Assembly (NCBI RefSeq): GCF_015277515.1
Contig: NZ_CP063767.1
Span: forward strand, 1,612,001 to 1,676,000
DNA from: Thermophilibacter immobilis
Lineage (GTDB): Bacteria > Actinomycetota > Coriobacteriia > Coriobacteriales > Atopobiaceae
Length of the DNA stretch: 64,000 nt
Reading direction: 5' to 3'
The position numbers were made by a program, and so were the translations under genes. Positions 22,238 through 41,063 of this stretch are shown here, piece after piece. Below the pieces are notes generated by a model, which had not been told where the DNA came from, ran no database searches, and saw only the letters and a program-made list of their open reading frames with translations. The number at the start of each line of letters is the position of its first letter. Within the stretch, counting starts at the first letter, position 1.

Positions 22238-22246
22238 GCCTACCCC

Positions 22247-23800: not shown

Positions 23801-23908
23801 GAATCCTCCATCTTGTTTCAACTGGGATGATTAGATGGTGCCTGAACGAGGAGAACCCCAGGTGCCTGGACGCTCTCCCTCGAGACGCATAGATTTTCCT
23901 CTAGCAGA

Positions 23909-23936
23909 GGGGGCGACGGCGCAGGCCGCCGCCCCC
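23909..23936 (-). terminator. Intercistronic hairpin between grdA and grdC
   Basis: A 12-bp GC stem (23909-23920 with 23925-23936, one G-U wobble) with a 4-base loop. It lies just after the grdA stop and could stabilise the upstream message or reduce read-through into grdC. Confidence 0.5.
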
Positions 23937-23950
23937 AGACGCAAGTACGA

Positions 23951-24828: not shown

Positions 24829-24854
24829 GAAAATCCTCCTTCTTCTCGACCGGG

Positions 24855-24878
24855 GCGCGGGCCGCAGGCGGCCCGCGC
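24855..24878 (-). other. Intercistronic hairpin between trxB and trxA
   Basis: GCGCGGGCCG (24855-24864) pairs with CGGCCCGCGC (24869-24878), a perfect 10-bp stem. No T-run follows on the minus strand, so RNA stabilisation is more likely than termination. Confidence 0.45.
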
Positions 24879-24886
24879 GAGGGTTA

Positions 24887-25825
24887 TTACCGTGAGAGGT
24901 ACTTCTCGGCCTGCATAGCGGCTATGGCACCGTCGGAGGCCGCCGTGACCACCTGGCGCAGGCTCTTGACGCGCATGTCGCCTGCAGCAAACACGCCGCC
25001 GACGTCGGTGTGCATATCGTCATCGGTGATGACGTAGGCACGCTCGTCCGTCTTCACCTTGCCGTCCAGAAGGGTCGTGGACGGGAGCAGTCCGATAAAG
25101 CCGAACAAACCAAAGAGACCGTCATCTTCGTCCGCCTCGATCCGGCGCAGCTCGCCGGTCTTGGTATCGCGAACGACCATCCACTGGAGGATCTCGTCGC
25201 CGCCGACCTCGTCCACCACGGAGTTCCACATGAAGTGGAGGTTCTTGACCTTGAAGGCCTTCTCCTGGATGGACTTGGCGGCGCGCAGCTCGTCGCGCCG
25301 GTGGATGACGGTGACCTCGCGAGCGAACTTGGTGAGATACATGGCCTCTTCGACGGCAGCGTCGCCGCCGCCCACCACGTAGACCTCAAGGCCTTCGAAG
25401 AAGTTGGCGTCGCAGGTGGCACAAAACGAGATGCCACGACCCACGTACGTCGCCTCGTTCTTGCAGCCGATCGAGCGTGGGTGGGCGCCCGTGGCCAGAA
25501 TCACGGCCTTTGCCTGGTAGGTAGCCTTGGAGCCCGTGAGCGTCTTAACGTCTCCGTCAAGTTCGACGGAGTTGATGGTGTCGCTGACGCGCTCGCAGCC
25601 GAACTTGGCCGCCTGCTGCGTCATGCGGGCGACGAGGGACGGACCGCTCTCGCCCTCCAGCTCCTGACCGGGATAGTTCTCGATGTCGTTCGTGATGGCA
25701 ATCTGGCCGCCGTCTTGGCTCTTCTCGATGATGAGCGTGTCAAGACGGTTTCGCCCGGAGTACAGGCCAGCAGACAGGCCAGCGGGACCGGCACCCAGAA
25801 TGATAACGTCGTAAATCTTAGCCAC
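24887..25825 (-). CDS. trxB: Thioredoxin reductase
   Basis: A 312-residue FAD/NADPH flavoprotein. The FAD-binding GAGPAGLSAGLYSGR, the redox pair CATC in SFCATCDANF (about residues 138-141), the NADPH-binding VVGGGDAAVEEAMYL and the C-terminal GVFAAGDMR are all present. It passes electrons from NAD(P)H to TrxA and then to selenoprotein GrdA. It lies between grdB and trxA, an arrangement found in many grd operons. Confidence 0.93.
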   Translation of the reverse strand: MAKIYDVIILGAGPAGLSAGLYSGRNRLDTLIIEKSQDGGQIAITNDIENYPGQELEGESGPSLVARMTQQAAKFGCERVSDTINSVELDGDVKTLTGSKATYQAKAVILATGAHPRSIGCKNEATYVGRGISFCATCDANFFEGLEVYVVGGGDAAVEEAMYLTKFAREVTVIHRRDELRAAKSIQEKAFKVKNLHFMWNSVVDEVGGDEILQWMVVRDTKTGELRRIEADEDDGLFGLFGFIGLLPSTTLLDGKVKTDERAYVITDDDMHTDVGGVFAAGDMRVKSLRQVVTAASDGAIAAMQAEKYLSR

Positions 25826-25847: not shown

Positions 25848-27176
25848 TTATCTGCGTACCTTGAACACGGTCTGCTCGGTCACCGGAGTGGCGAGCGCGT
25901 CAAGCGCGACGCCCACGCGGTAGTAACGGAGCTTCCACTGCTCCTCCATCGGAGTGGCAGGGTCACCGAGGGGGTACGGGATGGAGATCGTCGGGACGAT
26001 CCTGTTAGCGCCCACCGTCGTGGAGACGGGGACGAGGTTGCACATGTGCACGACGGGGTAACCCGCGCGCTCGAACACCTTCACCATCGTTGCGCCGCAA
26101 CGAGTGCAGGTGCCTCAAGTGCTGCCGACTATGATGGCGTCGACACCATCCTCCTTGAGATACGGAATCATCTCGGTGGCCATGCGTGCGGCCTCGGCTT
26201 CGGTGGTTCCCGTGCCCACGGTGGAGTAGAAGTACGGATGGAGCTTGCCGATCTTGCCCTCGCGCTCGTAGGCGCGCATGGCGTCGAGCGGCACGACGCG
26301 GTTGGGATCGTCGTCGGCGGCGGCAGGGTCGTAGCCGGCGTGGATGGTCTTAAAGCCGTTCGCGGCACGGTTGGGCAGCTTGTCCAGACCGGTCATGTCG
26401 TAGCGGCCCCAGCGGGTGGCGGAGGCGGACTGGATGCGGTCAGGGTTGTCCACGGGGACGATGCCGCCTGAGGTAACGAGCGCGATGTTGGCCTTGGAGA
26501 GGTCAGCCACGGGCTCGGCGATGGGCACGATGTCCTTCTTGGGGATGACGAGCTCAGTCTGGTACGGCTGCTTGTTCATCTTCTTGATGAGCATCTGAAC
26601 GCCGCGATAGGCAGCGGTGTTCTCGCGCGTGTTCTCTAGGAAGGCCTGGTGGCGACAGCCGCGGACGAAGTAACCCTCAGCCTCGGCGCCACCGGTGGGC
26701 TCGCCGGCGAGAACTTTGTTCACGTAGCCAATCATGATCTTGACGTCCTTGCGCATCTTCACGGCGCCGTTGCCGCCCTTGAAGATGATGACGTCCTTCT
26801 TGAACATGTCGACGCCGGGGTTCTCCTCGTTCATGGAGGTGACCACCGGCACGCCGAGCTGCTCGTGAACGGCCTTGCAGATGTTTCCGCAGGCCACACC
26901 GTAGCGGCCGGCTTGGAACGCAGGCCCGGCGATGAAGAAGTCGCAGGGCTTGCCCTCGAGCATCTTCATAATGCGGCTCACGGCCTCCTCGGTGTTGGAG
27001 CCCATGAAGTTGTCGCCGCAGACGACCGTATAGGTGACCTCGGCGTCCTTGAGTGCAGCGTTGATGGCCATGGAGGGGCCTACGACGCCCTCGACGATAT
27101 AGGGCTCGGTGTCGGCCTTGTCCTCGCCGCCCACGCCGCCGAAGAACTGGTTGAGATAGCAGATAACACTCTTCAT
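25848..27176 (-). CDS. grdB: GrdB, glycine reductase component B selenoprotein subunit gamma
   Basis: A 442-residue substrate-specific selenoprotein. The ATG at 27176 has AAGGAGGT ten bases upstream. Codon 354 is TGA (26115-26117) inside VGST-U-GTCTRCGATM, giving the UxxCxxC motif of GrdB; reading continues in frame for 88 more codons to 25848. The residue before Sec is Thr. It acts with GrdE to bind glycine as a Schiff base and transfer the carboxymethyl group to Sec. Because grdE and grdB occur once, the complex is most likely glycine-specific. Confidence 0.95.
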
Positions 27177-27210: not shown

Positions 27211-28539
27211 TTAGACCTCAAGCATCGTCTTGACGGAATAGCCTGCGATGTGATCGCCGCAGAACCAGTTGTTGTCCTCCATGATGATGGAGCCGTCGTC
27301 GCGTCCGGACTTGCCCAGCTTCTCGTCATAGCCCCAGGAGCCGGACATGCCGTCGCGGTTCATGGCCTCCAGGTTGCCGATGACGGTCTTGCAGGCCGGA
27401 AGCTCGCAGAGCTCGGAGACATTGCCCGTGGAGACGAGCGCGGTCATCTTCTCGTCCAGGGTGACCAGCGGCTGGCTCATCCCGTCGCGGCCGGTGCACT
27501 CGTTGGAGATGCCCACGACGGGGATGCCGGCATCCTCCAGGATGACCTGGCAACGCACGTAGTCGGCGTCGGGGTTGCCGTAGCCCTCCTCGGTCACGAT
27601 GGCATAGTCGACGCCCAGGTTCAGCGCGATGTTGCGCACCATAATGGCCGAGCGCTCCTTCTGGTCCAGCGCCACGTTGAGGTTGGACAGAATGACGCCC
27701 ACGAAGTTGAGGGTCTTGCCGTCCTCGGCGAAGAGCTCCTTGATGGTGGGGAAGTTCTGCATCTCATAGGTGGCCCACTTGGAGGAAGAGGGCATGAACG
27801 AGCCGGAGATCAGGCAGCCGTCGAGAATCTCGGTGGGGCTGACGAAGGTCGGCACGAAGTGGTTCATGTCCCAACCGTAGATGAGGTCGTTGTAGCCCAT
27901 GGCCTCCATCTGGGACTGAGGCTGCAGCACGATGGCCACGTTGGGCAGGGCGTTGCGCTCTGCCGAGCGCTTGAGGACCGGGTCGAACACGTAGGTCTCG
28001 GTGTCCTCGACCTCGACGTCGGTGGCAATCTTGCCCACGTACTCGGCTAGGCGGTGAGCCGCCCAGCGCATGGCGTGGTTGCACTTCTGCTGCTCGTGAT
28101 ACTCGAATTCCTCGTCCGTCTCGCCGACGAGGCAGATGTTGATGAGCTGGGACCAGTAGGTGAACTTGGCACCCTCCCCGCCCATGTCGATGACGCCGTC
28201 ACCAAACGAGCCATAGGTGCCACCCACGGAGGTGATGCAGCAGCCCTTGAAGGCCTTGAGCTCACCGTCTCCCGCGGGGACGAGCTCGTCGGTGACGCCG
28301 GGGAACAGGCAACGCCCGTCCGTGCGCACGCGCGGCTCGACGATCTCGATAACCGGGACGATGCGCGTGTCATCACCCGGATGGGCGATGACGATGTCTA
28401 GTGAGGTGATGTGGTCGTCCTCGCCCATCAGATAGTCGATGGCGGCTTGCTTGTCGATAGTCAGCACGCCGCCGGCAAAGCCGTTAGCCTCGCCGAGCAC
28501 AACATCCTTGACATAGATGTTTCCAATAGAAAGCTTCAT
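27211..28539 (-). CDS. grdE: GrdE, glycine reductase component B proprotein (alpha/beta)
   Basis: A 442-residue proprotein, first gene of the grd operon. It begins MKLSIGNIYVKDVVLGEANG. Cys242 lies in ILDGCLISGSFMPSSSK, the position where the family is cleaved to give a pyruvoyl-type group that forms the Schiff base with glycine. The C-terminal part has GISNECTGRDGMSQPLV. A 260-nt GC-rich leader and a promoter with two palindromes lie upstream. Confidence 0.93.
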   Translation of the reverse strand: MKLSIGNIYVKDVVLGEANGFAGGVLTIDKQAAIDYLMGEDDHITSLDIVIAHPGDDTRIVPVIEIVEPRVRTDGRCLFPGVTDELVPAGDGELKAFKGCCITSVGGTYGSFGDGVIDMGGEGAKFTYWSQLINICLVGETDEEFEYHEQQKCNHAMRWAAHRLAEYVGKIATDVEVEDTETYVFDPVLKRSAERNALPNVAIVLQPQSQMEAMGYNDLIYGWDMNHFVPTFVSPTEILDGCLISGSFMPSSSKWATYEMQNFPTIKELFAEDGKTLNFVGVILSNLNVALDQKERSAIMVRNIALNLGVDYAIVTEEGYGNPDADYVRCQVILEDAGIPVVGISNECTGRDGMSQPLVTLDEKMTALVSTGNVSELCELPACKTVIGNLEAMNRDGMSGSWGYDEKLGKSGRDDGSIIMEDNNWFCGDHIAGYSVKTMLEV

Positions 28540-28815: not shown

Positions 28816-28856
28816 TAACCGCGATTATTGTTTGTTTTCTAACCGTGATTAGTCAA
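28816..28856 (-). promoter_or_regulatory. grd operon promoter with two palindromic sites
   Basis: On the minus strand TTGACT (28851-28856) overlaps by one base the palindrome TAACCGTGATTA (28840-28851, plus-strand reading); a second copy, TAACCGCGATTA, lies 24 bases downstream at 28816-28827. An AACAAT or AAACAA -10 lies between them. The geometry suits repression, or control of RNA polymerase access, by a dimeric regulator. Confidence 0.6.
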
Positions 28857-28948
28857 GCCAGAACCGCTTTATTCACCAATGAATTTGGCAGACGGTAGAA
28901 ACGCATGGACGAATGGCGACAGATTCTCGGGAGGTATTTCCACAGAAA

Positions 28949-28979
28949 GGCCCCGAGCAGACGAGGTCTGCTCGGGGCC
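28949..28979 (-). terminator. Terminator of the OsmC gene
   Basis: GGCCCCGAGCAGAC (28949-28962) pairs perfectly with GTCTGCTCGGGGCC (28966-28979); on the minus strand TTTCTGT follows. It lies 45 bases after the osmC stop. Confidence 0.8.
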
Positions 28980-29023
28980 AGCGGAGCCAAACTGTTATGC
29001 CAGATGATACGCGGCCGGAAAGT

Positions 29024-29446
29024 CTAGTCCTTGACCGCGGTGCTGCGCACGAGCTTGACGCCTTTTTCGGGCGTCAGTGCCACGGGACAGAGCTTAGCGA
29101 CACGCTCGGCGAGCTCGTCGACACGCTCCTGTGGCTCATCGGTCATGAAGTGCAAGGCATAGCGAATCTCCTTCATGCCGGGCCGAACGTCCGGGTCGAA
29201 GTCGCCCTCTATCTCGATGTGACACTCCTCATAGGCAAATCCCATCTCACGAGCAATGCCGACCGCGCCTATCACCTGGCAGCCGCCAAGCGCGCTCAGG
29301 AGTGCCTCAACGGGGTTCATGCCCTCGTTGTCGCCGTCCGACTCCTTAGGCTCGTCCATGATCATGCGAAGCCCGCGCGCGTTGGCCTCGACCTTGTCCT
29401 TGCCCTCGACGCACTTACGGACGCTCACCTTGAATGTTGCCGCCAT
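29024..29446 (-). CDS. OsmC family protein
   Basis: A 140-residue OsmC/YhfA-like protein. MAATFKVSVRKCVEG begins the first strand, GMNPVEALLSALGGCQVI gives the central helix with a conserved Cys, and the C-terminal CPVALTPEKGVKLVRS supplies the second family cysteine. Members reduce organic peroxides or carry sulfur-type ligands; here it lies between selenium operons. The start at 29446 is preferred. The bases around the start closely match those of yedF. Confidence 0.8.
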   Translation of the reverse strand: MAATFKVSVRKCVEGKDKVEANARGLRMIMDEPKESDGDNEGMNPVEALLSALGGCQVIGAVGIAREMGFAYEECHIEIEGDFDPDVRPGMKEIRYALHFMTDEPQERVDELAERVAKLCPVALTPEKGVKLVRSTAVKD

Positions 29447-29550
29447 TGCCACCACGTTCCCCTCTCTTGTTGATGTAACGTATCATCAGCACCTTCGGGA
29501 TGTGCGAAACCCCAGGATTTTGAATCCGAACGAGGGTGTCTCAGAGCAAC

Positions 29551-29686
29551 TTTGGACTTGTCAATAGATTTTCGAATACCTCCCGAGTAGCGGCCGCTTC
29601 ATTACTGAAGAAATTGCAGTTAGACGCTTTGCTGATTTTGCTGCTATTCGGGCTGTCCTCCAAAAACTACTGACAAGTCTCCAAAC
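29551..29686. repeat. 136-bp imperfect inverted-repeat element
   Basis: The left end TTTGGACTTGTCAATAG and the right end CTACTGACAAGTCTCCAAA are inverted copies, and similarity continues inward through TTTT and CCCGAGTAGC/GCTATTCGGG for about 46 bases per arm. The centre holds a small CTTCA/TGAAG hairpin. The element is visibly less GC-rich than its surroundings and has no open frame of note. It could be a MITE or a structured RNA. Confidence 0.55.
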
Positions 29687-29693
29687 GACTCGA

Positions 29694-30638
29694 TTAGGCC
29701 CGATTTGTCACCGGATTGGAGGTCTCCTCGGATGCGCGGACGAACATCACGTAGCGCACGAGCACGTAAATCACCAGTGCGGCCGCGATTACGGTCTCCA
29801 CGAGGACCACCGGGGCAAGCCAGGCCTGCGGCGAGCCCAAGTTGGCCAGGCAGGCCATGGTCTGCTTGGAGGCGATGGCGCTGATGACGAACGGGAAGGT
29901 GAGCGACGCCCAGCTGGGGAAGAACTTCCCCCTCAAGACGCCAACCGCCTGCGCCAGAGCAAACACGTACAGGACGCTCGCCACCGCGTAGAGGACTAGG
30001 AGCAGCCCAATCGACTTGGGCGTGACGCTCTGCACGTAGGCGGCGACGCAGAGACTGGTCGGAGCCGCGTAGATGCAGATGAGAGGTACTGCGGGCGCGG
30101 GAACCTCGGGCTTCTTGACGTAGCGCACCGTGACGAGGACCAGAAGGATCACGAGCGTGATCAGGCCGAACCAGAACGAGAGGGCGCCAACCCCCTCCTG
30201 CCCGAAGGCCGGAGCAGAGACACCTGCCACGGCGATGCCCACATACACGATGTAGTAGCTCGCAAACACCTTCGAGAGGTCGAGCTTGAGGATGAACTTA
30301 ATCGTGAAGTACACGATGAGCGCCAGGTGGATCGCAATGGCAATGAACCACAGCACCTGGGCCGCAGCTCCCAGCACGGACTTGAGGTAGGCGGCGAGGA
30401 GCATGAGCGCCATGGGAAACGTCGCCGCCACGCTCGCCATGATCGGGCTCTTGAGATCGTCGGCGAGCGTCTTGGGATAAGCCAAGCACTTGATGAGGAA
30501 GAGCACGAGCAGAAGGCCCGCTATCACGCCGCACGCCGCCCGCATCCCCTCGGAGTAGCTCTGTAGCAGGTTCCCGAGGGCGGCCAGCCCCAGGGCCACG
30601 CCGCAGACGGGAAGGGGAATCTTCTTGATGAGGTTCAT
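29694..30638 (-). CDS. TDT family transporter (TehA/SLAC1-like)
   Basis: A 314-residue membrane protein with about ten hydrophobic helices, resembling the tellurite-resistance/dicarboxylate transporter family. It starts MNLIKKIPLPVCGVALGLAALGNLL, a typical family opening, and has FPMALMLLAAYLK and FPSWASLTFPFVISAIA. Family members move organic anions, sulfite, tellurite or chloride. It is the last gene of the cassette with the HgdB-like proteins; export of a sulfur or selenium oxyanion is a contextual guess. Confidence 0.75.
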   Translation of the reverse strand: MNLIKKIPLPVCGVALGLAALGNLLQSYSEGMRAACGVIAGLLLVLFLIKCLAYPKTLADDLKSPIMASVAATFPMALMLLAAYLKSVLGAAAQVLWFIAIAIHLALIVYFTIKFILKLDLSKVFASYYIVYVGIAVAGVSAPAFGQEGVGALSFWFGLITLVILLVLVTVRYVKKPEVPAPAVPLICIYAAPTSLCVAAYVQSVTPKSIGLLLVLYAVASVLYVFALAQAVGVLRGKFFPSWASLTFPFVISAIASKQTMACLANLGSPQAWLAPVVLVETVIAAALVIYVLVRYVMFVRASEETSNPVTNRA

Positions 30639-30655
30639 TCGCTGTCCTTATCTGT

Positions 30656-31171
30656 CTAGGCGCTCTGGAGCTGAAGGGTCGGGTCTTCGGCGCCGTTAAC
30701 GACCGTGAGGCCGAGCTCGCGCGCCACGATCTGACCGACCTTCCAGGCAGCGAGCCCCGTGAAACGAATGCACTGCTCCTTGTGCTCGCCCTTACCCATG
30801 TCGAACTCACGGGTGAGGATCCGGCAGCATACGGCGTTCTTGCCGGTAGCCTTCCGGAACCAGTCGTGGAGCTCGTTGGTGAGCCGCATGACCTTGACCG
30901 ACTGCGGGTCCTTGGGCCCCTTGGGCTCGTCGCGCCCGAAGAGCAGGCCGAGCACCATGACCCCTCCGTTGAGGGCACCGCACAGGCAGCCGGAATGGCC
31001 CACGCCCACGGCCATGCCGGAGGTCATGCGCACGATCTCCGGGGAAACGTCAAGCTCAAGGTCCTTGACGACGGCGCTCATGAGCGCCTCGCAGCAGTAG
31101 AAGCCACCGCGAAAGTTGTCCTCCGCGTCCTTCTGAAGCTTGGTCAGATCGACCTCTTGCGTAACGTGCAT
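30656..31171 (-). CDS. C_GCAxxG_C_C family redox protein
   Basis: A 171-residue small cysteine-rich protein. The family pattern is visible as GGFYCCEALMSA, then HSGCLCGALNGGVMVLGLLFG, then CCRILTREFD and QCIRFTG. Such proteins are often near redox and sulfur/selenium genes but have no proven function. The start at 31171 has AGGAGAAGG upstream. It lies between the activator ATPase and the TDT transporter. Confidence 0.75.
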   Translation of the reverse strand: MHVTQEVDLTKLQKDAEDNFRGGFYCCEALMSAVVKDLELDVSPEIVRMTSGMAVGVGHSGCLCGALNGGVMVLGLLFGRDEPKGPKDPQSVKVMRLTNELHDWFRKATGKNAVCCRILTREFDMGKGEHKEQCIRFTGLAAWKVGQIVARELGLTVVNGAEDPTLQLQSA

Positions 31172-31192
31172 AGCCTTCTCCTGTCTTTTCGG

Positions 31193-31217
31193 GTCGCGAC
31201 TGCTTGGGTGTCGCGAC
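31193..31217 (-). other. Palindromic hairpin between the activator and the C_GCAxxG_C_C gene
   Basis: Two copies of the self-complementary octamer GTCGCGAC (31193-31200, 31210-31217) are 9 bases apart and can form an 8-bp stem. It may be an intercistronic RNA hairpin. Confidence 0.35.
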
Positions 31218-31274
31218 GCTCCTATCGCCTCTGTCGCAACCCCTCGACGCGACAAAAGACACCTCGTTCATGCG

Positions 31275-32042
31275 CTAGGGCAGCTCGAGCGCGGTGAGCG
31301 CCGCCCCGAGAGCCCCAGCGTATCGTGCCTCGGGGCACGTCGTCACCGGAGAGCCAAGGGCGGCACCCAGGCGCTCCACCACGTAGTCGTTCTCGCAGAG
31401 GCCACCCGTGAGATAGTACGGAGCCTTGCCGCCCGTCGACCCGGCGAGCGTGGCCACGCGAGAGATCACGCTCTCGATCACGCCGTTGGCTATGTTGGGC
31501 CGCGGCTCGCCACGACCCACGAGGCTGATGACCTCGCTCTCGGCGAACACGGTGCACATGCTGGAGATTTTCGTGAGCTCACCTGAGCGCGCAAGGTCGG
31601 CGAGCTCGTCGTGCGAGACGCCCAAGCGGTCGGCCATGACCTCCAGGAAGCGCCCCGTACCGGCAGCGCACTTGTCGTTCATGGCAAACTTGATGACGCG
31701 CCCGGCCTTGAGGCGGATGACCTTGGTATCCTGGCCGCCCACGTCGATGACGGTGCCGTCCGGGCCAAAGAGCCGCACGGCGCCGCGCCCGTGGCAGGTG
31801 ATCTCAGTCACGACCTTGTCGGCGAACGGCACGGCTACACGACCGTAGCCGGTGGCCACCACGCGCGTGTCCTCACCGAGCTCGATGCCCTTACTGGCAA
31901 GACCGGCGCGCGCCCGCTCGGCGGCGTCGACGCTCGAGAAGCCCGTGGGCATGAGGAGCTGCTGCCTGATCGCACCGCCCTCCCCCGCCACCACGACCTT
32001 CGTCGCCGTGGACCCGATGTCAATGCCTATGCCTACTGCCAT
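31275..32042 (-). CDS. BadF/HgdC-type ATPase activator (YjiL-like)
   Basis: A 255-residue ASKHA-fold ATPase. MAVGIGIDIGSTATKVVV gives the phosphate-1 loop; VIDVGGQDTKVIRL the phosphate-2 region; and the [4Fe-4S] cysteines are in NDKCAAGTGRFLEVM and SSMCTVFAESEVISL. These proteins drive ATP-dependent low-potential electron transfer to 2-hydroxyacyl-CoA dehydratases or double-cubane cluster proteins. The two partner-like proteins are encoded at 34911-37413. The ATG at 32042 is the family start. Confidence 0.88.
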   Translation of the reverse strand: MAVGIGIDIGSTATKVVVAGEGGAIRQQLLMPTGFSSVDAAERARAGLASKGIELGEDTRVVATGYGRVAVPFADKVVTEITCHGRGAVRLFGPDGTVIDVGGQDTKVIRLKAGRVIKFAMNDKCAAGTGRFLEVMADRLGVSHDELADLARSGELTKISSMCTVFAESEVISLVGRGEPRPNIANGVIESVISRVATLAGSTGGKAPYYLTGGLCENDYVVERLGAALGSPVTTCPEARYAGALGAALTALELP

Positions 32043-32140
32043 GACCAATTCACCTTTAGTAACTTCGCTTCTGCATTTTCGAGTAATTACGTTGTGCAAA
32101 TCCTTCTATATGTTCTTACTTGAGACTCTTTAATGCCATC

Positions 32141-32890
32141 CTATATGGTCCAACGCAGCAAATGCGTCTTGATATTTTCAAAAATTTGCATAATAATTAC
32201 AAGTATGAATGCCATAAAAATCACGCCGGCCCATGTATTGGCATAAATGCCAAACTCGGCGTACTTCTTAACAAAGAAACCCATGCCCTGCTGAGCACCA
32301 TACATCTCAGCAAATACAAGCATGACAAATGAGCTACGAAGCGAATTGACAAACCCAGCTATGATCGATGGGCTTGCTGCTGGCAGAATAACCCGAAAAA
32401 CCAGCTTTATTCCTGTAAGATTGAGCGTCTTCGCCTTATCAAGATAACGTTTATCAATTGTCATAATACCTGTTATAGTGGCGAACAGTGTTGACCAAAT
32501 CGTCCCATACACGATCAAAAAAATTGAGGCAACCGTAAAGCTGGGCGAGAGGAGCAAGGCAAACGGTGAAAGCAAGATAGCAGGAATTACGCTAAAGATA
32601 TAGATAATTGGATGAAGAGCATCCCGAAGTCTCTTATTGAGCCCAAGCAGTGTCCCAATCGCAAGAGCAATGAGAAGCGATATGGCAATAGCGGGAATAA
32701 TCAGACTGAATGAGAAGAACATGTTACTAATCATGAGCTGCCAGTTTTGCGCAAATGCCGCCCCTATTGCCTCGACTTTTGGGAAAAGGAACGAGTTAGC
32801 CACGCCAGTCTCAGTAGTCACCACATAGATGGTCACTAATGCGGCGATTACGACTACAGTTATCCAATACTTTTTTATAAATTTTATCAT
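32141..32890 (-). CDS. NitT/TauT-type ABC permease (SsuC/TauC-like)
   Basis: A 249-residue, about six-helix permease of the sulfonate/nitrate/taurine importer class. The EAA loop is seen as DKAKTLNLTGIKLVFRVILPAASPSIIAGF. The gene is much richer in A/T than those around it, using many ATA, AAA and TTT codons, so recent transfer is likely. The ribosome-binding site is weak, only 18 bases after the binding-protein stop. It works with the products of 32909-34039 and 34104-34886. Confidence 0.85.
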   Translation of the reverse strand: MIKFIKKYWITVVVIAALVTIYVVTTETGVANSFLFPKVEAIGAAFAQNWQLMISNMFFSFSLIIPAIAISLLIALAIGTLLGLNKRLRDALHPIIYIFSVIPAILLSPFALLLSPSFTVASIFLIVYGTIWSTLFATITGIMTIDKRYLDKAKTLNLTGIKLVFRVILPAASPSIIAGFVNSLRSSFVMLVFAEMYGAQQGMGFFVKKYAEFGIYANTWAGVIFMAFILVIIMQIFENIKTHLLRWTI

Positions 32891-32908
32891 AATAATTCTA
32901 TGTATCTC

Positions 32909-34039
32909 TTAGACACAGCAGCTAGATGCTGGCTGCGTAGTCTGAGTATCTATATTTTGCTCCGTATAGAAGGACTCCATCTTAGTAAAGAAGTCGGCGT
33001 AATCATCACCATAGGATTGCTTCGCCTCGTCGAGAGCCGACCTGTAGAGCTCAGTGTTGATATGGTCATTAATGTCCATCTGCTTGGCTTTCTCGTCCAG
33101 AAAGTCTGTCTCATCAAGAATATCCCAAGCACGATTGACTGACGCCCTAAGGGGGTCAACATTTACCTGATAATGGTCATCAAGCATGAAGGCAGAGACG
33201 TAATCATCATCAGTACCAGTTGCTTCAGCATGCAGAGAAACGGCTTCTTCTTTGTTGGCCTCATAGTAGGCTTGAGCACGTAGTAAAACGACCAGGAGTT
33301 TCTGGGCAGTCTCTTTGTTTTCTTCAAGCCAAGAGCCTTGGCATTCCATGCGACAACAGGAGTAATCGGCCATGATGTCACTTTGATAGCACATAATGTC
33401 GACATCTTGGGAATTTTTCACCGCCTGTACTTGTCCAGTACCCATGAGTGCATAGTCAGCATCGCCCCGCACCACAGCAGCCATGGCCTCGGTATAGTCA
33501 GTGTATGTTTGCCAGTCCACAGCCGTCAGTGGATCGTCATAGCCTAAGTCCATCACCGCTCCGGTTAGGGCAAAATAGCTGGGATTTGCGGCTACTTTCT
33601 TGCCGATAAAGTCCTGGACCCCATTCCATGTTGTTCCTTTCTTGGCAATGATGGGCATGCATCCCGTGAGCATATGGCCACCAAAGATAGTGAAGTCCTG
33701 CCCAGCTGCAATTTGCTGTAGGGGAGCAGCTGTTCCCGCATTGGAGACAACATCGGTCTTCCCTGTTGAGAGCATGGTAAGGGCATCTGAGTTGGCATTG
33801 GCCTGTACCATATTTATCTTTATGCCTGCCTCATCAAAGTAACCCTTGGCGTTAGCGATAGTGAGCAAGACATTGCCACTCGTGCCCGCGTTCCAGTTCA
33901 CAGTTGCGATCCTGTCTGATGAAGAACCGCCATCAGAAGTGGTTCCAAAATCTGATGCTGCCTGTGAACTACAACCCACCAGGGGTAACGCCGTCATAGA
34001 ACCAAGGGCGACCTTTACGAAATTCCTTCTGGTAAGCAT
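32909..34039 (-). CDS. Tat-type lipoprotein, SsuA/TauA-like substrate-binding protein
   Basis: A 376-residue NMT1/SsuA-type binding protein. The signal has TRRNFVK, a hydrophobic core and a PLVGC lipobox. The mature protein shows VNWNAGTSGNVLLTIANAKGYFDEAGIKINMV and DVVSNAGTAAPLQQIAAGQDFTIFGG, typical of sulfonate/nitrate/taurine binders. It ends in a cysteine pair (PASSCCV), which is unusual. Base composition is more A/T-rich than the neighbouring HgdB-like genes. The substrate is unknown; a sulfur or selenium compound would fit. Confidence 0.82.
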   Translation of the reverse strand: MLTRRNFVKVALGSMTALPLVGCSSQAASDFGTTSDGGSSSDRIATVNWNAGTSGNVLLTIANAKGYFDEAGIKINMVQANANSDALTMLSTGKTDVVSNAGTAAPLQQIAAGQDFTIFGGHMLTGCMPIIAKKGTTWNGVQDFIGKKVAANPSYFALTGAVMDLGYDDPLTAVDWQTYTDYTEAMAAVVRGDADYALMGTGQVQAVKNSQDVDIMCYQSDIMADYSCCRMECQGSWLEENKETAQKLLVVLLRAQAYYEANKEEAVSLHAEATGTDDDYVSAFMLDDHYQVNVDPLRASVNRAWDILDETDFLDEKAKQMDINDHINTELYRSALDEAKQSYGDDYADFFTKMESFYTEQNIDTQTTQPASSCCV

Positions 34040-34103
34040 ACAGAGCCCTTCTTTTTGTGGGATCACATTTTGCACACTCGTGAACAGCCAGCTAGACAGC
34101 CCC

Positions 34104-34886
34104 CTATTCCATCCGCTCGGAAACGTTGTCGTTAATCTTCTCAAGCAGTTCATTGCGCAGGTCCAGAAACCGTTCATTCCTGAAGAGAGTTTGACGCGTA
34201 GGTCGATTCGCCTCGTCAATGTGAGTGTCATAGATCACGCTACTGGGCGTTTGTCCAAGCACGACGATGCGCGTACCCAGAAGCAGTGCCTCGTCGACGT
34301 CATGTGTCACAAAGAAGACGGTTTTTCGCTCCCCGGATCCCCCCCACAGCCTGCGAACGAGATCCTGAAGTTTTGCACGTGTGATAGAGTCCAACGCGCC
34401 AAACGGTTCATCCATAAGTAATACGGGAGGATCAATGGCTAGCGCCTGAGCAATGGCGCATCGCTGCTGCATACCACCGGAGAGCTCCTTGGGTAGTTTG
34501 TTAAGTACATCCGGAGTCAGTCCCACATGTAACAGCATCTCGGTAGCACGTATCTTTAACGCAGTTCGGGACATTTCTGGAGAGCTCTGTTCAAGAGCAA
34601 GAGTGATATTCTTGCCTGTGCTCATCCAAGGATAGAGTCCATAATCCTGGAAGACCACTCCACGATCGAGTCCAGCCCCCATAACGGGACTTCCATCAAG
34701 CATTATCGATCCAACCGTTGGCTGCTCAAGACCAGCAATAAGACGTAGCAATGTAGACTTGCCACAGCCTGAGTGGCCTAAGATGCAGACGAACTCCCCG
34801 GGGTCGACATCTAGGTCAATGCCACTCAGCACGCACTTACTACCCGCGTATGAAAAATCGAGGCCTTTGATGTCCACTCTCTTCAT
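34104..34886 (-). CDS. NitT/TauT-type ABC ATPase (SsuB/TauB-like)
   Basis: A 260-residue ATPase with Walker A GHSGCGKST, Q-loop VFQDYGLYPWM, signature LSGGMQQR, and Walker B VLLMDEPFGALD, followed by the family's SITRAKLQDLVRRLW. It is the first of the three transporter genes, 24 bases after the HgdB-like gene. A truncated relative of this ATPase lies at 37671-37878. Confidence 0.88.
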   Translation of the reverse strand: MKRVDIKGLDFSYAGSKCVLSGIDLDVDPGEFVCILGHSGCGKSTLLRLIAGLEQPTVGSIMLDGSPVMGAGLDRGVVFQDYGLYPWMSTGKNITLALEQSSPEMSRTALKIRATEMLLHVGLTPDVLNKLPKELSGGMQQRCAIAQALAIDPPVLLMDEPFGALDSITRAKLQDLVRRLWGGSGERKTVFFVTHDVDEALLLGTRIVVLGQTPSSVIYDTHIDEANRPTRQTLFRNERFLDLRNELLEKINDNVSERME

Positions 34887-34910
34887 GATGAATATAATCC
34901 CTTCGCGCCG

Positions 34911-36095
34911 CTACAGCGTCTCGATGAACGCGGCGATGCGCGTGTCGATCTGGCCCTGGTCACCGGAGCTGTAGTCGGTCTCAATCTTCATGTACGGGAC
35001 GCCCTTCCCCTCGACGGCGCGCTCCATCTTGGAGGACTCCACGTTGAAGGGGTGGCAGGCCTGGAGCACGCTCTCTATGACGCCGTCGACGTGGTACTTC
35101 TCGATCATGCCAAGCGTGTTCTCGAAGCGTCCCTCGTTGGGCGTCATAACCGCGCAGTTGATCTCCAGGTAGCGGTCGGCGATGGCGCGCAGGATGTCGT
35201 CGGCATCCTCGTCGACCATCATGCGGGCGGTACGCTCGCCGGCGCAGTCATCCTGGCAAACGATCACGCCGCCATTAGTCTCCACGGTGCGGCCGATCTT
35301 GTTGATGACGCCGCCGACCGGACAGCCCGTGATCAGGACGCGCTTGGCCGTGGGGTCGACCTTAGAACCGTTCTTGACGGCCTCGGCCCTGCGTTCCTCG
35401 TAGAGCTTCTCGAGGCTTTCCGTGTAGGCGGCCACGTCAAAGTTGAACGTGCCCGCGAACATCGTGCTCATGAGCTCCACGCCGCTGATCACAGGCGGCT
35501 GCTGCTCCTGCAGGCTGAAGAGGGCGAGCTGGGCGCGGCGCAGGCGGTTGCGCTGACGCGCGGCGACACGCAGGTCGTCGTCGGTAATGGTGATGCCGTA
35601 GATCTCTTCGAGGTGCTCCTTGAGCAGCCTGCACTCTTCGTACCAGCCCTCGCGCTCGTAGGTGCGGGCGCGGCTCTGGGGCAGGTGCAGAACGTGGGTA
35701 GGCTTGAGCTCGTTCAGGAGCTCGTACATCTTCTTCTTGCCGTCGCAGGTGGTCTCGCCCACGATGAGATCCGAGAAGTAGGTGAACGGGCACTTCTGCG
35801 AGTAGGCGAAACCGTAGGTAGACTTGATGAGCGGGCAGAGGTTGGCCGGCAGGACCTCCTCGGCCGCGGGAATCACCTCGTCGGACGTGCCGCACAGGCC
35901 GACCGCGCTCACGCCGGCCGCCTCAATGATCTCGAGCGGCGTATAGCTGCAGAGGTAGCCTATAAGTCGGCCGCCACCCTGCTTGAAGTCCTTCACCTTG
36001 ATGAAGCTTGCCTTGCGCTGCTCGTTGAACTCCTCGAAGGTGCGAGGAAGCGGCGGAAGAGCTGTAGTCCTAGGTCGGGTCAGGGCCTCAGGCAT
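34911..36095 (-). CDS. HgdB/YjiM-like 2-hydroxyacyl-CoA dehydratase-family (double-cubane type) protein 1
   Basis: A 394-residue iron-sulfur protein. Conserved cysteines appear in [39 protein letters not shown], in [12 protein letters not shown] and in [11 protein letters not shown]. The pattern matches the YjiM/double-cubane-cluster group rather than true acyl-CoA dehydratases, since no CoA-transferase or matching alpha/beta dehydratase set is nearby. With the activator at 31275 it should perform an ATP-driven, very low-potential reduction. The reading frame follows the sister gene after a single base. Confidence 0.78.
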
Positions 36096-36096
36096 G

Positions 36097-37413
36097 TTAG
36101 ATCGTCTCCAGGAACGCCTCGACGCGCGTGGTGAGCTGACCCGCGTCCTCGTTGGCGTAGTCCGTGGTGACGTGCATGAAGGGGATGCCGGCCTCCTCGG
36201 CCGCCTTCTCCACCGTGAACGCCTCCGTCTCGTAAAGGGTGCAGAACTGCAGGGAGCAGTCGATGATGCCATCGGCGTGAAGGTCGCGCGCCATGTTCAC
36301 GATGTCCGCCATGCGCTGGTCGTTTGGGGTGAACACGGCGCAGGAGATCTTGAAGTAGCGTTCGGCGATGGCGTCGAGCATCTGGTCGACCGTGGTGCCG
36401 GACTCGTCGACGAGGTCCCTGTAGTAGCGCGAGCCGGTGCAGGACTCCTCGCCCACCACGATGCCGCCGGCCTTCTCGATGATGTTGAAGAACTTCCAGT
36501 TGGGAACGGCCATGGGCGTGCCCGTGTAGAGGATGCGCTTGGTGCCCTTGGGCACGACGCCCTCGCCTACGGCAACGCGTGCCTCGCACTCGGCGGCCAT
36601 GTCGTTGACGGCGCCGGTGAGGCGTACGGGGTCATCCATGAGGGCAGCCTGTACCGTGAGCAAGCTGTCAAGGCCCGAGATGGGCGCGGGGTCGGCGGCA
36701 CGCGTTGCCGAGAGGCGCTGGAGGGCGCGGCGCTTGTCGTTGGCGATGCGGATGGCCTCGGCCAGGGACTCGGCCGTGATGGGCTGGCCGCAGAACTCCT
36801 CAATCTTATGGGCAAGCTTCTTCACCTCGCCCTTCCAGACCTCGACCGTCGCGTCGTTGTGAACGTTGGGGATGTCCACGATGTACATGTTGGCGAGCGT
36901 GGAGAAGTACTCGTAGGCCTTCTTCTTGCCATCGCAGGTATTCTCGCCCACCACGAGGTCGCTCGACTCGATGTAGGGGCAGACGTGCCCGAGCTTGAAG
37001 CCCGTGAAGCTCTTGATGAGGGGGCAGGTGTTGCGCGGCAGGTGCTCCTCGACCTTGTCGGTGGCCCAGTCCGCGCCGGAGCACAGGCTCACGGCAATGC
37101 CGCCCGCAGCCGTCACGACCTCCTCGGGCACGTAGAGACAGAACGACCCCACGATCTTGGTCGCCTCTCCGCTCTCCTTCTTGTCCAGCATCTCCCTGAT
37201 GCGCCCCGAGTGGATGTTCGAGGCAACGAAGTCCAGGTAGGACGTGGCCTTGGGACGGTTACTCTGCGTGAGGAACATGTCACCGTACATCTGCCCCACG
37301 GCACCCAGGAGCATGTCGTGATCCTCCACGTTCATGCCGAGCGACTTCCACATGGGATGGTAGTCGTACTCCTGCGCCGGCTGCTGCTCGTTCTCCACCA
37401 GTGTCTCTGCCAT
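36097..37413 (-). CDS. HgdB/YjiM-like 2-hydroxyacyl-CoA dehydratase-family protein 2
   Basis: A 438-residue paralogue of the preceding protein with a longer N-terminus. It keeps [39 protein letters not shown] and [17 protein letters not shown], but where protein 1 has ITGCPVGG it has YTGTPMAVP, so one candidate cluster cysteine is replaced by Thr. The two could form a heterodimer with one complete and one altered cluster site. The start at 37413 has AGGAG six bases upstream. A hairpin at 37433-37460 precedes it. Confidence 0.75.
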
Positions 37414-37432
37414 GGTTCTCTCCTGTCTTCTG

Positions 37433-37460
37433 GTCCGGTGCCACCCCTCAGGCACCGGAC
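37433..37460 (-). other. Hairpin before the HgdB-like operon
   Basis: GTCCGGTGCC (37433-37442) pairs perfectly with GGCACCGGAC (37451-37460). It sits just after the stop of the methionine-gamma-lyase remnant and upstream of the next ribosome-binding site, so it may be that lost gene's terminator, without a T-run on this strand. Confidence 0.45.
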
Positions 37461-37466
37461 GCTTAC

Positions 37467-37670
37467 CTACTTTTTAGTCAAAGCAGAAAATGCCTGATCA
37501 AAATCAGCGATGATGTCCTTAACGTCCTCGAGACCCACCGAGAGTCGAATGAGTCCGTCAGTGATTCCCATCTCTTCGCGCACGGATTCGGGTACACCAT
37601 GATGAGTCATACCAGCGGGAACCTCGATAAGGCTCGCCGGGTCTCCCAAGCTCACGGCAGCTGGTCCCGC
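37467..37670 (-). pseudogene. 3' remnant of a Cys/Met-metabolism PLP enzyme (methionine gamma-lyase/OAH sulfhydrylase-like)
   Basis: The last about 63 codons read AVSLGDPASLIEVPAGMTHH, GVPESVREEMGITDGLIRLS and VGLEDVKDIIADFDQAFSAL, which is the standard C-terminus of methionine gamma-lyase, cystathionine gamma-synthase or O-acetylhomoserine sulfhydrylase. The catalytic lysine domain is missing. The piece is joined, out of frame, to a truncated ABC ATPase. The junction lies near 37670. Confidence 0.75.
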
Positions 37671-37878
37671 ATATGGACTCTCCCCCGACGGAAAGCGATC
37701 CAATGGTCGGGTCCTCAAGTCCCGCAAGCAGACGTAGAAGCGTGCTCTTGCCACAACCCGACTGCCCCAGAAGACAGACGAAGTCTCCTTGGTCAACCTC
37801 CATGCACACATCACGAAGAACCAGCTTTTCCGAGCCTGGGTAAGAAAATGAAACGTGGTCTATGCTTACATAACTCAT
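37671..37878 (-). pseudogene. 5' remnant of an SsuB/TauB-like ABC ATPase
   Basis: About 69 codons beginning MSYVSIDHVSFSYPGSEK with a good AAGGAG site include Walker A (GQSGCGKST) and stop resembling an ATPase after IGSLSVGGESICG, where the sequence passes into the PLP-enzyme remnant. Everything from the Q-loop on is missing. It resembles the intact ATPase at 34104-34886 in family type. A deletion fusing two ancestral genes is the simplest explanation. Confidence 0.75.
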
Positions 37879-38022
37879 GAACACTCCTTGTAAAAACCCA
37901 GGCGTCGACAATTGGTGTCGAACTAAACACGCACGATTTGCCCAAGAGAAATTAAAATAGCAACTGTTGTTAGAGGTAGAACCCTAAACAGACTGAACTT
38001 ATACAGAGTGCACTCCTATCTT
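37879..38022. other. AT-rich intergenic segment
   Basis: This 144-base stretch is clearly A/T-richer than the region and contains no gene. It may hold the promoter of the truncated ATPase/HgdB-like operon, but I could not fix a box pair. Confidence 0.35.
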
Positions 38023-38280
38023 TTAGCTGCCACCCTTCCGGTAGATCTCTTCGTACGTCACTGCCGCTCCTTCGCCAACCGTACGGGCCACGAGCTCTAT
38101 CCCCTCGGGCCAGTCCTCGCCTTCATCGAGCGGTGAGGCCTCGAAGAAGGCGCAGGTGCCGCAGCTGCTCGAGAGCGAACGGGGAACCGGGGCAAGCTCG
38201 CACGCCACACCCCGATCCCGACAGAAGCGGCGAAACCGCAGCGCCCCAAAGTGCGAATAGAAGGTGGCAACGTTGCGCAT
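38023..38280 (-). CDS. DUF3343 Se/S carrier-like protein, copy 2
   Basis: An 85-residue DUF3343 protein with MRNVATFYSHFGALRFRRFC at the start and the motif SSSCGTCAFFE near residues 38-48. It is thought to carry or hand over persulfide or perselenide sulfur/selenium. It follows the TusA-like gene by 7 bases and belongs to the yedE module. The ATG at 38280 is preferred over the GTG at 38283. Confidence 0.72.
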   Translation of the reverse strand: MRNVATFYSHFGALRFRRFCRDRGVACELAPVPRSLSSSCGTCAFFEASPLDEGEDWPEGIELVARTVGEGAAVTYEEIYRKGGS

Positions 38281-38287
38281 CACGCCT

Positions 38288-38497
38288 CTAGGCCTTCGTG
38301 ACGTCGAGGGTCCACTCGCCGTCGGACTCGCTCATGCTCACCTGATAGCCCTGGTGCTCCGCATAGCGGGTGACGTTCTCACGCGGGGCGGGCGCGTCGA
38401 CCACCATGCGGCAGAAATCGGGCTTCTTCTCCAAAGCACGGCTCATCATCACGACCGGCTCGGGACACGAGAGCCCGCGCGCATCAAGCGTTTCCAT
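38288..38497 (-). CDS. TusA/SirA-like sulfur carrier
   Basis: A 69-residue TusA-family protein beginning METLDARGLSCPEPVVMMSR, with the CPxP-type motif CPEP whose Cys carries the persulfide. AAGGAG lies 8 bases before the ATG at 38497. It begins 2 bases after the yedE stop and is followed by a DUF3343 gene, the usual YedE-associated order. Confidence 0.85.
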   Translation of the reverse strand: METLDARGLSCPEPVVMMSRALEKKPDFCRMVVDAPAPRENVTRYAEHQGYQVSMSESDGEWTLDVTKA

Positions 38498-38499
38498 GT

Positions 38500-39585
38500 C
38501 TACTTCTCCTTTCCGAAGGTGTTGGCACACGCGATGCCAATGACCACCACAAGTCCGAGAACCACGGCAATCTGTCCCGCCATCGTGGTGCCGTCGGCAC
38601 TCGAGGCAAGACCGAAGTTATGGCAGAAGGCCGCGCCCACGGCGAGGCCCAGGATCGCGATGGCCGAGTCGCCGTTGCCCTCACCGGAGAGCACAAGCTG
38701 GCGCAGCGGGCAGCCACCCAGAAGCACGCAGGCAAAGCCCACGAGGAACATGCCCAGAAAGTTCCACAGGCCGTCGGCGTGAGCGATGGGCTGGCCCTCA
38801 AAGCCAAGGTTGAAGTACGAGGTGCCGGTGGCAGCGGTGAGCACGAGGTTGCCCACAAGAGCCGCGACGAAGATGGCGATGAAGCCCATGAGGAGCTTGT
38901 TCTCACGGAACAGGATCATGTCGCGGATGCCCCCCACCATGCATAGGCGCGTGCGCTGGGCGATGGCACCTACGATAAGGCCCGCGATAAGGCTAATGGC
39001 AATCGCAGCGTGCTTGGCGCCGGGACCGGCACCGGCCTCGGTGAAGAAGATGAACGCGGGACCCGCTATGACGAGCACGAGCAGAATCACCTGGATGATG
39101 GGCCAGATAACGCCCTCGAGCTTGCTCGCGCGATACGTGCGACCAAGCGAGTATCCCTTGTTGAGGAAGAAGGTGCCCGCAGCGATTCCCGCCGTGAAGC
39201 CCACGAGGCCCACCAAGGCGTTGAGATCACCGCCGGCAAGGCGCAGAATCATGCGAAACGGACAGCCCAGGAACATGAGGCAGCCCACCATGACGCAGAA
39301 GCCGAGCACGAAACGAGTAATGGGGGCCGAGCCACCACGCGCGGTGAACTCGCCCTTGCCCACGGCGAGAAGAAAGCTCCCAAGTACCAGCCCAAAGATC
39401 TCGGGTCTGATGTACTGTACGGCTGCGGCCCTATGAAGCCCCAGGCCGCCCACGGTGTCCCTGATGAAGCACGCGACGCAAAAGCCCATGTTGGCGGGGT
39501 TGCCAAAGAAGACCAGCATGACGGCTATGACGCCGATGACAAGCCCTCCCCCAATGATCGTAGCCCGTTCCTTCGTGAGGTTCAT
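38500..39585 (-). CDS. yedE: YedE family putative selenium transporter
   Basis: A 361-residue membrane protein of the YeeE/YedE class with about nine helices and the duplicated family motif seen as GCPFRMILRLAGGDLNALVG and GCPLRQLVLSGEGNGDSAIA. The subfamily that travels with TusA-like and DUF3343 genes is annotated as a selenium importer; YeeE itself imports thiosulfate. The ATG at 39585 gives the family start MNLTKERATIIGGG. The substrate is probably a selenium or reduced-sulfur anion. Confidence 0.85.
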   Translation of the reverse strand: MNLTKERATIIGGGLVIGVIAVMLVFFGNPANMGFCVACFIRDTVGGLGLHRAAAVQYIRPEIFGLVLGSFLLAVGKGEFTARGGSAPITRFVLGFCVMVGCLMFLGCPFRMILRLAGGDLNALVGLVGFTAGIAAGTFFLNKGYSLGRTYRASKLEGVIWPIIQVILLVLVIAGPAFIFFTEAGAGPGAKHAAIAISLIAGLIVGAIAQRTRLCMVGGIRDMILFRENKLLMGFIAIFVAALVGNLVLTAATGTSYFNLGFEGQPIAHADGLWNFLGMFLVGFACVLLGGCPLRQLVLSGEGNGDSAIAILGLAVGAAFCHNFGLASSADGTTMAGQIAVVLGLVVVIGIACANTFGKEK

Positions 39586-39752
39586 CGCATGCTTCCCTTC
39601 GCTTCCCAATGACCTGTCATGACCGTTCCGCAGACAAACGAAAAAGAGCAAAGTATTCGCTCGAAGAGCCGTGGAAGGTGTGTGATCGTGCTCTGCAAAC
39701 CCGATTCGACAAGGAGCCGCACGCATTGCCCGACCACCGTCAGGCAACGAGG

Positions 39753-39804
39753 GCGTAGGCAGGATTGCCACCTACGCGACCGACGGCCAAGACACGCTTG
39801 GCCG
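39753..39804 (-). terminator. Hairpins after the second desulfurase gene
   Basis: CGGCCAAG (39784-39791) pairs with CTTGGCCG (39797-39804), and a GCGTAGG/CCTACGC pair lies just beyond. They sit 8 bases after the desulfurase stop. T-runs are absent, so termination may be partial. Confidence 0.4.
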
Positions 39805-39811
39805 ATGCGTC

Positions 39812-41002
39812 CTAATCGATTGGATGGTTTAGTTGGGAGCAGATTTTTCGAAGCGCGGTCAGAACCGCGTCGACATCAGCCTCGGTACCTGCGAAGCCGA
39901 ACGAGAAGCGAATAGTCCCCACGGGGAAGGTGCCCAACGTTTTGTGGGCACTCGGGGCGCAATGCAGGCCCACGCGCGTCTGGATGCCAAAGTCGACGTC
40001 AAGGCGGCGGGCGACCTCGGCCTCGTCGAGAAGAGGCGTGCACACGGAGACGACGCCCGTGCGATTGGTTGTGTCGCGCCTTCCCACGATGCGTACGAGC
40101 CCGTCTTCCTCGAGCGGGAAGAGCCCGTCGAGGAAACGCTGCGTCAGCGCGAGCTCGTGAGCGCGGATGGCGTTTATCCCCTGCTCGCGCAGCCACAGGA
40201 GACTCGCGCGCAGGCCCATGATCCCAGGCAGGTTGAGGGTGCCCGCCTCGAAGCGGTCAGGCATGAAGCAAGGGGTCTCCTCAGAGTCGCTCACCGATCC
40301 GGTGCCTCCCACCACGAGGGGCTCGAGCGTGGCGGCGAGCTCGGGAGAGAGCACGACACCGCCTATCCCCTGAGGACCCAAGAGTCCCTTATGACCCGTG
40401 AAGCAAAGGGCGTCAGCATGAAGCTCGTCCATGCGCGTGGGCACGAAGCCCGCCGTCTGAGCGGAGTCCACCATAAAGGCAATGTGGCGCTCCTGGCACA
40501 GGGCCCCCACCTCGGCGAGCGGGAGCATGGTTCCGCAGACGTTGCTTGCGTGGGTCATTACGACTATGCGCGTGGCGGGCGTGAGAGCTTGGACTACGTC
40601 AACAGGGTCCAGACTGCCATCGGCCGCGCAGGCGATGCGCGTAAAAGTGACGCCCCTCTGCGCTAGTTGCGTGAGCGGGCGCATGACGGCATTGTGTTCC
40701 ATCGAGGAGACCACGACGTGGTCTCCCGGCGTGAGAAGCCCCTTGAGCACGAGGTTGAGGGACTCGGTAATGCAGCGCGTGAACACAACGTCGCTTGGGT
40801 CGGGACCGCCGAGAAGCTCGCAGAGCAGCTCGCGACACTCGAGCACGCCGTCCTCCGCGTCGAAGGCACCACCGTAGCTCCCGCGGTTAACGTTGTAGCC
40901 GCCCTCAGTCATAAAGCGCGTCATGGCCTCGACAACACAGGGAGGCTTGGGGAACGTCGTACATGCGTTGTCTGCGTAGATGCCCACGTGCCCCCCTGTC
41001 AC
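39812..41002 (-). CDS. Cysteine desulfurase-family PLP enzyme (EF2568-like), copy 2
   Basis: A 396-residue paralogue of the enzyme at 12957. It has IYADNACTTFPKPPCVVEAM, the PLP lysine in CFTGHKGLLGPQGIGG and the catalytic Cys in TRVGLHCAPSAHKTLGT. It starts with GTG at 41002. A promoter with a perfect palindrome precedes it, and yedE, tusA-like and DUF3343 genes follow, so it probably delivers Se or S to that module. Confidence 0.85.
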   Translation of the reverse strand: MTGGHVGIYADNACTTFPKPPCVVEAMTRFMTEGGYNVNRGSYGGAFDAEDGVLECRELLCELLGGPDPSDVVFTRCITESLNLVLKGLLTPGDHVVVSSMEHNAVMRPLTQLAQRGVTFTRIACAADGSLDPVDVVQALTPATRIVVMTHASNVCGTMLPLAEVGALCQERHIAFMVDSAQTAGFVPTRMDELHADALCFTGHKGLLGPQGIGGVVLSPELAATLEPLVVGGTGSVSDSEETPCFMPDRFEAGTLNLPGIMGLRASLLWLREQGINAIRAHELALTQRFLDGLFPLEEDGLVRIVGRRDTTNRTGVVSVCTPLLDEAEVARRLDVDFGIQTRVGLHCAPSAHKTLGTFPVGTIRFSFGFAGTEADVDAVLTALRKICSQLNHPID

Positions 41003-41034
41003 TTTTAAAATTCCCTCATGTACGAGTAAAGCTC

Positions 41035-41063
41035 ATTCTTGTTTGATAATCGCGATTAGTCAA
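41035..41063 (-). promoter_or_regulatory. Promoter with perfect palindrome TAATCGCGATTA
   Basis: TTGACT (41058-41063 on the complement) and AAGAAT (41035-41040) are 17 bases apart. The 12-bp perfect palindrome at 41047-41058 fills the upstream half of the spacer and touches the -35, an operator position expected to block RNA polymerase. The same arrangement is found before grdE. Confidence 0.7.

Follow-up and report, generated by a model that had tools for sequence, protein, structure and literature searches.

A palindromic element and a TetR-family regulator as a putative switch for betaine reduction and selenocysteine supply in Thermophilibacter immobilis

The analysed window is a 64,000-nucleotide stretch of contig NZ_CP063767.1 of Thermophilibacter immobilis, which carries genes for a predicted betaine reductase together with selenocysteine and selenium-supply genes. 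We find that the palindrome TAAYC-N2-GRTTA marks the promoters of this island, and that its frequency in related genomes depends on orthologs of a TetR-family regulator encoded at 8404-9114 on the plus strand (TetR 8404). The palindrome is probably the operator of TetR 8404, which would bind it as a repressor, respond to a small ligand and thereby co-control betaine uptake, the reductase and the selenocysteine and selenium-supply genes. An earlier note on this DNA had predicted one dimeric repressor, possibly this TetR protein, linking selenium supply to glycine reduction. The link between selenium supply and a reductase gains comparative support here, but the substrate appears to be betaine, not glycine.

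The search for TAAYC-N2-GRTTA recovered all five palindromes listed in that note, and each is read here on the minus strand as a predicted operator. TAATCAAGATTA (8208-8219) lies between the BCCT and TetR genes, over the -10 box and start point of the BCCT promoter and 185 bp before the TetR start. TAATCGCGGTTA (19882-19893) is located upstream of the -35 box of the tRNA-Sec/selA promoter, where a GATTA half-site also covers the -10 box, as the note had described. The grdI promoter has two sites: TAATCACGGTTA (28840-28851) abuts its -35 box (TTGACT), and a second copy of TAATCGCGGTTA (28816-28827), 24 bp from that site, covers its -10 box and start point. TAATCGCGATTA (41047-41058) abuts the -35 box (TTGACT) before the second cysteine desulfurase of the window. 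Five exact matches compare with 0.05 expected, and none of 100 shuffles reached five. Scanning the whole genome, one contig of 2,163,714 bp, yielded only these five exact copies, all inside one 33-kb island, against two for the reversed-pattern control. Five uniformly placed sites would cluster within 33 kb with a probability of about 3e-7.

Strong orthologs of TetR 8404 (E-value 5.5e-42 or better; next match 1.6e-25) are present in 20 of 395 genomes of the order. All 13 genomes with a GrdI ortholog (78-83% identity; split on two contigs in G260) have the TetR gene, as do 14 of the 16 GrdC genomes, the exceptions being G333 and G340. SelA is spread far wider (120 of 395 genomes), and TetR occurs in 16 of these 120. 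The TetR gene adjoins or neighbours grd, sel or yedE genes in many islands, and the recognition helix is nearly invariant across 19 TetR sequences.

The frequency of the motif follows the regulator. A hand count gave 40 copies of TAATCRYGATTA in 16 of the 20 TetR-positive genomes, versus 11 copies in 9 of 80 genomes that have SelA without TetR (Fisher 5e-9, a value that, like the other p-values here, ignores kinship among genomes); the reversed control gave four copies in the latter set. These 80 were drawn from 104 genomes after excluding 20 members of a single genus as well as G239, G290, G351 and G374. A genome counts as TetR-negative if nothing in it matched at 5.5e-42 or better, so that some carry weaker relatives. 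The rarity of the motif in these 80 genomes led us to reject a tie to selenocysteine use in general. In TetR-positive genomes all 39 placed copies lie at gene starts (-120 to +400 of the called start; the fortieth, G303:C1:712123, falls outside the fetched DNA), where many loci had been picked for bearing the motif and those picked by protein match had not. The 11 copies in TetR-negative genomes are distributed as six inside genes, four at starts and one at neither. In TetR-positive genomes the motif is not as frequent inside genes as at gene starts; an equal frequency would have spoken against the earlier proposal.

Sites recur before the same operons across relatives. An upstream site with at most one mismatch precedes 9 of 12 grdI, 7 of 13 trxB and 7 of 11 selA genes, compared with 13 of 253 other genes. 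These controls are the genes without a label at 34 listed loci, and some of the 13 with a site are divergent neighbours of true targets (for example in L035, L071 and L079). Conservation before the same operons, on which the earlier note had staked its motif, is therefore found. The grdI gene of G101, missed by the gene caller and outside the 12, has TAATCGCGATTG upstream. Paralogs of the glycine/sarcosine type show a one-mismatch site in 2 of 11 cases and an exact one in none (Fisher 0.009). In some relatives, further sites stand before the genes for acetate kinase in G324 and G255, for a formate/nitrite channel in G324, for formate dehydrogenase in G260 and G255, and for a PRK12771-type oxidoreductase in G324, G258 and G260. 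Others are found before genes without an evident link, such as those for a V-ATPase subunit (G103) and an NhaC-like antiporter (G324). Betaine-reducing fermentation requires substrate uptake, an electron donor, the reductase, ATP from acetyl phosphate and a supply of selenocysteine. The putative acetate kinase, formate channel and formate dehydrogenase targets fit such a metabolism.

The layout recurs in another phylum. Scanning the collection with the TetR alignment returned at least 25 loci, at least six of them strong ones in Clostridia-type metagenome-assembled genomes (Flavonifractor, Oscillospiraceae, Lachnospira, Faecousia). The Flavonifractor genome shows the order BCCT (minus strand), site, TetR (plus strand), site, grdI, grdH, trxB, trxA, grdA, grdC, grdD, selD, site, selA, with a further site before a double-cubane-like operon, and its six copies of TAATCNNGATTA are all on the contig of the TetR island. 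At L230, one-mismatch sites stand at the same two places around TetR; at L238, an exact site lies between TetR and grdI, 0.7 kb before grdI. A Bifidobacterium relative of 35% identity (L248) also has a site upstream, but one other copy occurs elsewhere in its genome and we did not accept it as clear evidence. Together, the co-occurrence of TetR and reductase, the TetR-dependent motif frequency, the placement of copies at gene starts and the recurrence in another phylum give good comparative support for a TetR switch.

The positions of the sites relative to promoters suit a dimeric repressor. On the coding (minus) strand TTGACT is directly joined to TAATC at both 28840 and 41047, and passable -10 boxes accompany these hexamers (AACAAT after 18, AAGAAT after 17). 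The earlier note had claimed identical phasing to the -35 box in three places. This holds for the two just named and fails at 8203, where TTTACT is on the plus strand, no -10 box stands at the proper distance by inspection and a plus-strand promoter is doubtful. Towards the BCCT gene on the minus strand, TTGCAC-N16-TACGAT places the 8208 site at about -7 to +4. In all, the window sites occupy -31 to -20, -30 to -19, -7 to +4 (twice) and, for tRNA-Sec, about -52 to -41. A terminator-like hairpin (28979-28949) parts the doubly bracketed grdI promoter from the upstream operon.

The phasing is local rather than a general rule; sites in relatives frequently overlap the -10 box, which is still compatible with a repressor. 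Among 36 sites hand-picked from the promoters of named targets, a choice that leaves only their flanks, centres and Y/R positions informative, the most frequent location relative to the best-scoring promoter was -10 to +1 (10 of 36), with the site fused to the -10 box, and the bulk of the others lay between -35 and about +20. In the direction of transcription, the core reads TAATC-RC-GATTA and A predominates after it at positions 15-17 (27, 27 and 30 of 36), and no clear pairing of flanks beyond the core was seen in these 36 sites.

Several observations weigh against this interpretation. Among TetR-positive genomes, G101, G109, G136 and G304 lack TAATCRYGATTA, and SelA is unmatched in four of the 20, of which two are only 70-72% complete. 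Three of the 12 grdI genes have no site, and of 18 TetR genes in relatives only 3 carry an upstream site of their own when one mismatch is allowed (p 0.08). Four of the six listed Clostridia-type genomes have no TAATCNNGATTA at the TetR or grd locus (two without any exact copy, two with one away from the TetR locus), and one of the six Flavonifractor copies falls within selD. Because the motif contains TAAT, -10 boxes are called too readily; an independent test of -35 spacing gave p 0.055. In the T. immobilis genome, one-mismatch copies number 27 versus 30 in the control, so that only exact copies stand out, and we rejected a wider regulon elsewhere in that genome.

The operon behind 28840 most likely encodes betaine reductase (grdI/grdH), and the earlier label grdE and the assignment to glycine reduction should be corrected. 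The selenoprotein B gene grdH (25848-27173, start approximate; minus strand) contains an in-frame TGA, and its product, with TGA read as selenocysteine, matches the GrdH model NF040795 over the full length. It scores 767.9 bits, just missing the cut-off of 775, versus 559 for the sarcosine and 493 for the glycine model; its ortholog in G035 reaches 790.7 bits and passes. Among six models compared, GrdH scores highest for both proteins. Of two paralogous B proteins tested, that of G093 passes the glycine cut-off (657 vs 602), yet the sarcosine model gives it 686 (cut-off 800), and that of G360 passes the general model only. The protein B alpha subunit gene (27211-28539, minus strand) has GrdG as its best model at 301 bits, below the cut-off of 780, and is named grdI because its partner gene is grdH. 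The genes needed to decode the TGA, for tRNA-Sec, SelA, SelB and SelD, are all present in the window.

We then propose a working model. TAATC-RC-GATTA, usually followed by an A-tract, would serve as the operator of TetR 8404, and a TetR dimer on or beside the -35 box, the -10 box or the start point would block RNA polymerase. The blocked promoters would be those of BCCT uptake, of grdI/grdH with the trx genes and grdACD, of tRNA-Sec, selA and selB, and of the desulfurase and YedE. TetR would be released by a small ligand, for which betaine or a related methylated glycine is the likeliest candidate, so that the trimethylamine-forming reductase and the selenocysteine machinery could be produced together. 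Betaine is favoured because betaine uptake, reduction and energy conservation belong to the target set, to which acetate kinase, the formate channel and formate dehydrogenase may be added in some relatives. It is tempting to speculate, with somewhat less than even confidence, that Actinomycetota and Bacillota share an island with its own substrate-sensing TetR, in which one ligand induces a whole selenium-dependent fermentation, joining trimethylamine formation from betaine to selenocysteine supply, to the electron donor through the formate channel and formate dehydrogenase, and to energy conservation through acetate kinase.

One alternative keeps the TetR protein and its operator and makes the signal selenium status (selenide, selenophosphate or a seleno-amino acid) instead of betaine. 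The target set is indeed rich in selenocysteine and selenium-supply genes; G109 keeps TetR, selA, selB, yedF and a Sec-lyase-like gene with no match to GrdE, GrdC or BCCT; and TetR neighbours a LysR_Se-type regulator in G109, G035, G093 and G257. However, TetR tracks the grd genes far more closely than the sel genes, as the GrdC and SelA counts above show, and sites are borne by the BCCT and acetate kinase promoters, neither of which is known to have a selenium role. We regard a selenium signal as unlikely, though as the likeliest of the alternatives.

TetR 8404 could also bind the same sites as an activator or dual regulator. The tRNA-Sec/selA site, upstream of its -35 box, and a few others alike would suit such a role, but the concentration of mapped sites around the -10 box and start point suits blocking, which makes activation improbable. 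Slightly more improbable still is that another island regulator, such as LysR_Se, binds the palindromes while TetR is a passenger. In G324, the gene of a LysR_Sec_metab protein that passes NF040786 separates a selA promoter with a site from the operon that follows, and relatives lie by selA in several genomes. No LysR_Se relative was found in the window or the Flavonifractor locus, both with sites, or in the 20-kb flanks of the window (the rest of the T. immobilis genome was not searched); an even 12-bp palindrome is moreover unlike the T-N11-A pattern of LysR sites, and the motif is rare in SelA genomes without TetR. Finally, chance matches in AT-rich intergenic DNA, which the control-level number of one-mismatch copies might suggest, are hardly credible for exact copies that exceed the shuffle mean 100-fold, all fall in one 33-kb island, depend on TetR and recur ahead of the same genes both in other families and in another phylum.

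TetR 8404 itself has an N-terminal TetR_N helix-turn-helix (PF00440, 29.2 bits, cut-off 24) and matched no LysR family. Its structure model (predicted local distance difference test score 91) has twelve helices, and those of its 18 PDB matches at E 0.001 or better that are titled by function are all TetR-type regulators. The fold was rejected as a guide to the ligand, as identity is 10-18% among the 50 matches listed. FadR-type TetR repressors (Thermus 3anp, Bacillus 3whb) are among the closest solved folds, but with 12-15% identity and TM-scores near 0.5 they give no guide to the ligand either. BetI is a TetR-family, choline-responsive repressor. TetR 8404 resembles it in family, in the betaine-related transport genes nearby and in weak helix-turn-helix similarity; membership was rejected at 26.1 bits versus a TIGR03384 cut-off of 201.3, and the predicted targets differ, being reductase and selenium genes.

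A transcription factor gene in selenium islands has a precedent in LysR_Se/HrsM, a predicted selenium regulator proposed to control selenocysteine genes (PMC5322559; the candidate also appears in PMC9312934). LysR_Se likewise occurs in several TetR-positive genomes, but it is a LysR protein, and the accessible parts of PMC5322559 give no operator. Another parallel is the grdHI cluster of Candidatus Betaina sedimentti, for which a figure legend labels tetR, lysR and gntR beside opuD (BCCT), trx and selA (PMC6716910). This tetR is drawn and labelled with no operator in the available portion of that paper, and it is likened to TetR 8404 by its label. A 'selR' label appears in the available text of PMC10418091, and that of PMC8547467 has no TetR gene. 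Our open-access literature searches brought up neither an operator nor a TetR-controlled regulon for betaine reductase; nor did they show a regulator of this enzyme, and for bacterial selenocysteine genes they showed only the LysR_Se candidate. Betaine reductase is one bacterial route to trimethylamine, the precursor of trimethylamine N-oxide, which is associated with heart and kidney disease (PMC6964529). If our model is correct, a cell could turn on trimethylamine production and its selenium machinery jointly. A defined predicted operator and a candidate repressor open two questions to direct testing: how trimethylamine formation is controlled, and how the supply of selenocysteine is matched to demand.

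The remaining genes of the island, all on the minus strand, were called with a custom codon-usage script whose start codons are approximate, and further genes in relatives were named from their best blastp match to the window. The BCCT transporter (6511-8136) satisfies the BCCT family model, and its best single model, glycine betaine BCCT, gives 537 bits, below the cut-off of 650. One operon runs from grdI/grdH through trxB and trxA (24502-25825; TIGR01292 and NF047697 cut-offs passed) to the selenoprotein gene grdA, grdC and grdD (21086-24412; NF040748, NF040746 and NF040747 passed). It is followed by selD (19922-20869; TIGR00476 passed), tRNA-Sec (19719-19815) and selA with selB (16317-19660; TIGR00474 and TIGR00475 passed). 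The desulfurase behind 41047 is Sec-lyase-like (39812-41002; TIGR01977 passed, SclA model not) and shares a gene run with the selenium transporter YedE (38500-39771; TIGR04112 passed) and a double-cubane-cluster reductase (36097-37455; NF040772 passed).

Several neighbours are also of note. A tandem DUF3841 pair (5330-6635, minus strand) recurs in the selenium/reductase islands L112, L101, L161, L162, L117 and L227 and frequently adjoins the TetR gene. A diverged TetR paralog (25-26% identity) stands beside a paralogous reductase B operon in G303 and G304 (L204, 7578-8294; L205, 1792-2508); TTATCACGATTA precedes that operon, perhaps as part of a sister switch. Between TetR and the sel genes lies an ABC transporter (9239-13608, minus strand) whose binding protein has 2-aminoethylphosphonate types as its best models, below cut-off. 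The sel gene run includes a group-1 glycosyltransferase (14111-15535, minus strand) that recurs in relatives and scores 20 bits with the selenosugar synthase SenB (cut-off 300). An OsmC-family protein (29024-29455, minus strand) is nearest to an OsmC-related (seleno)protein model, below cut-off, and its relative in G260 has an upstream site.

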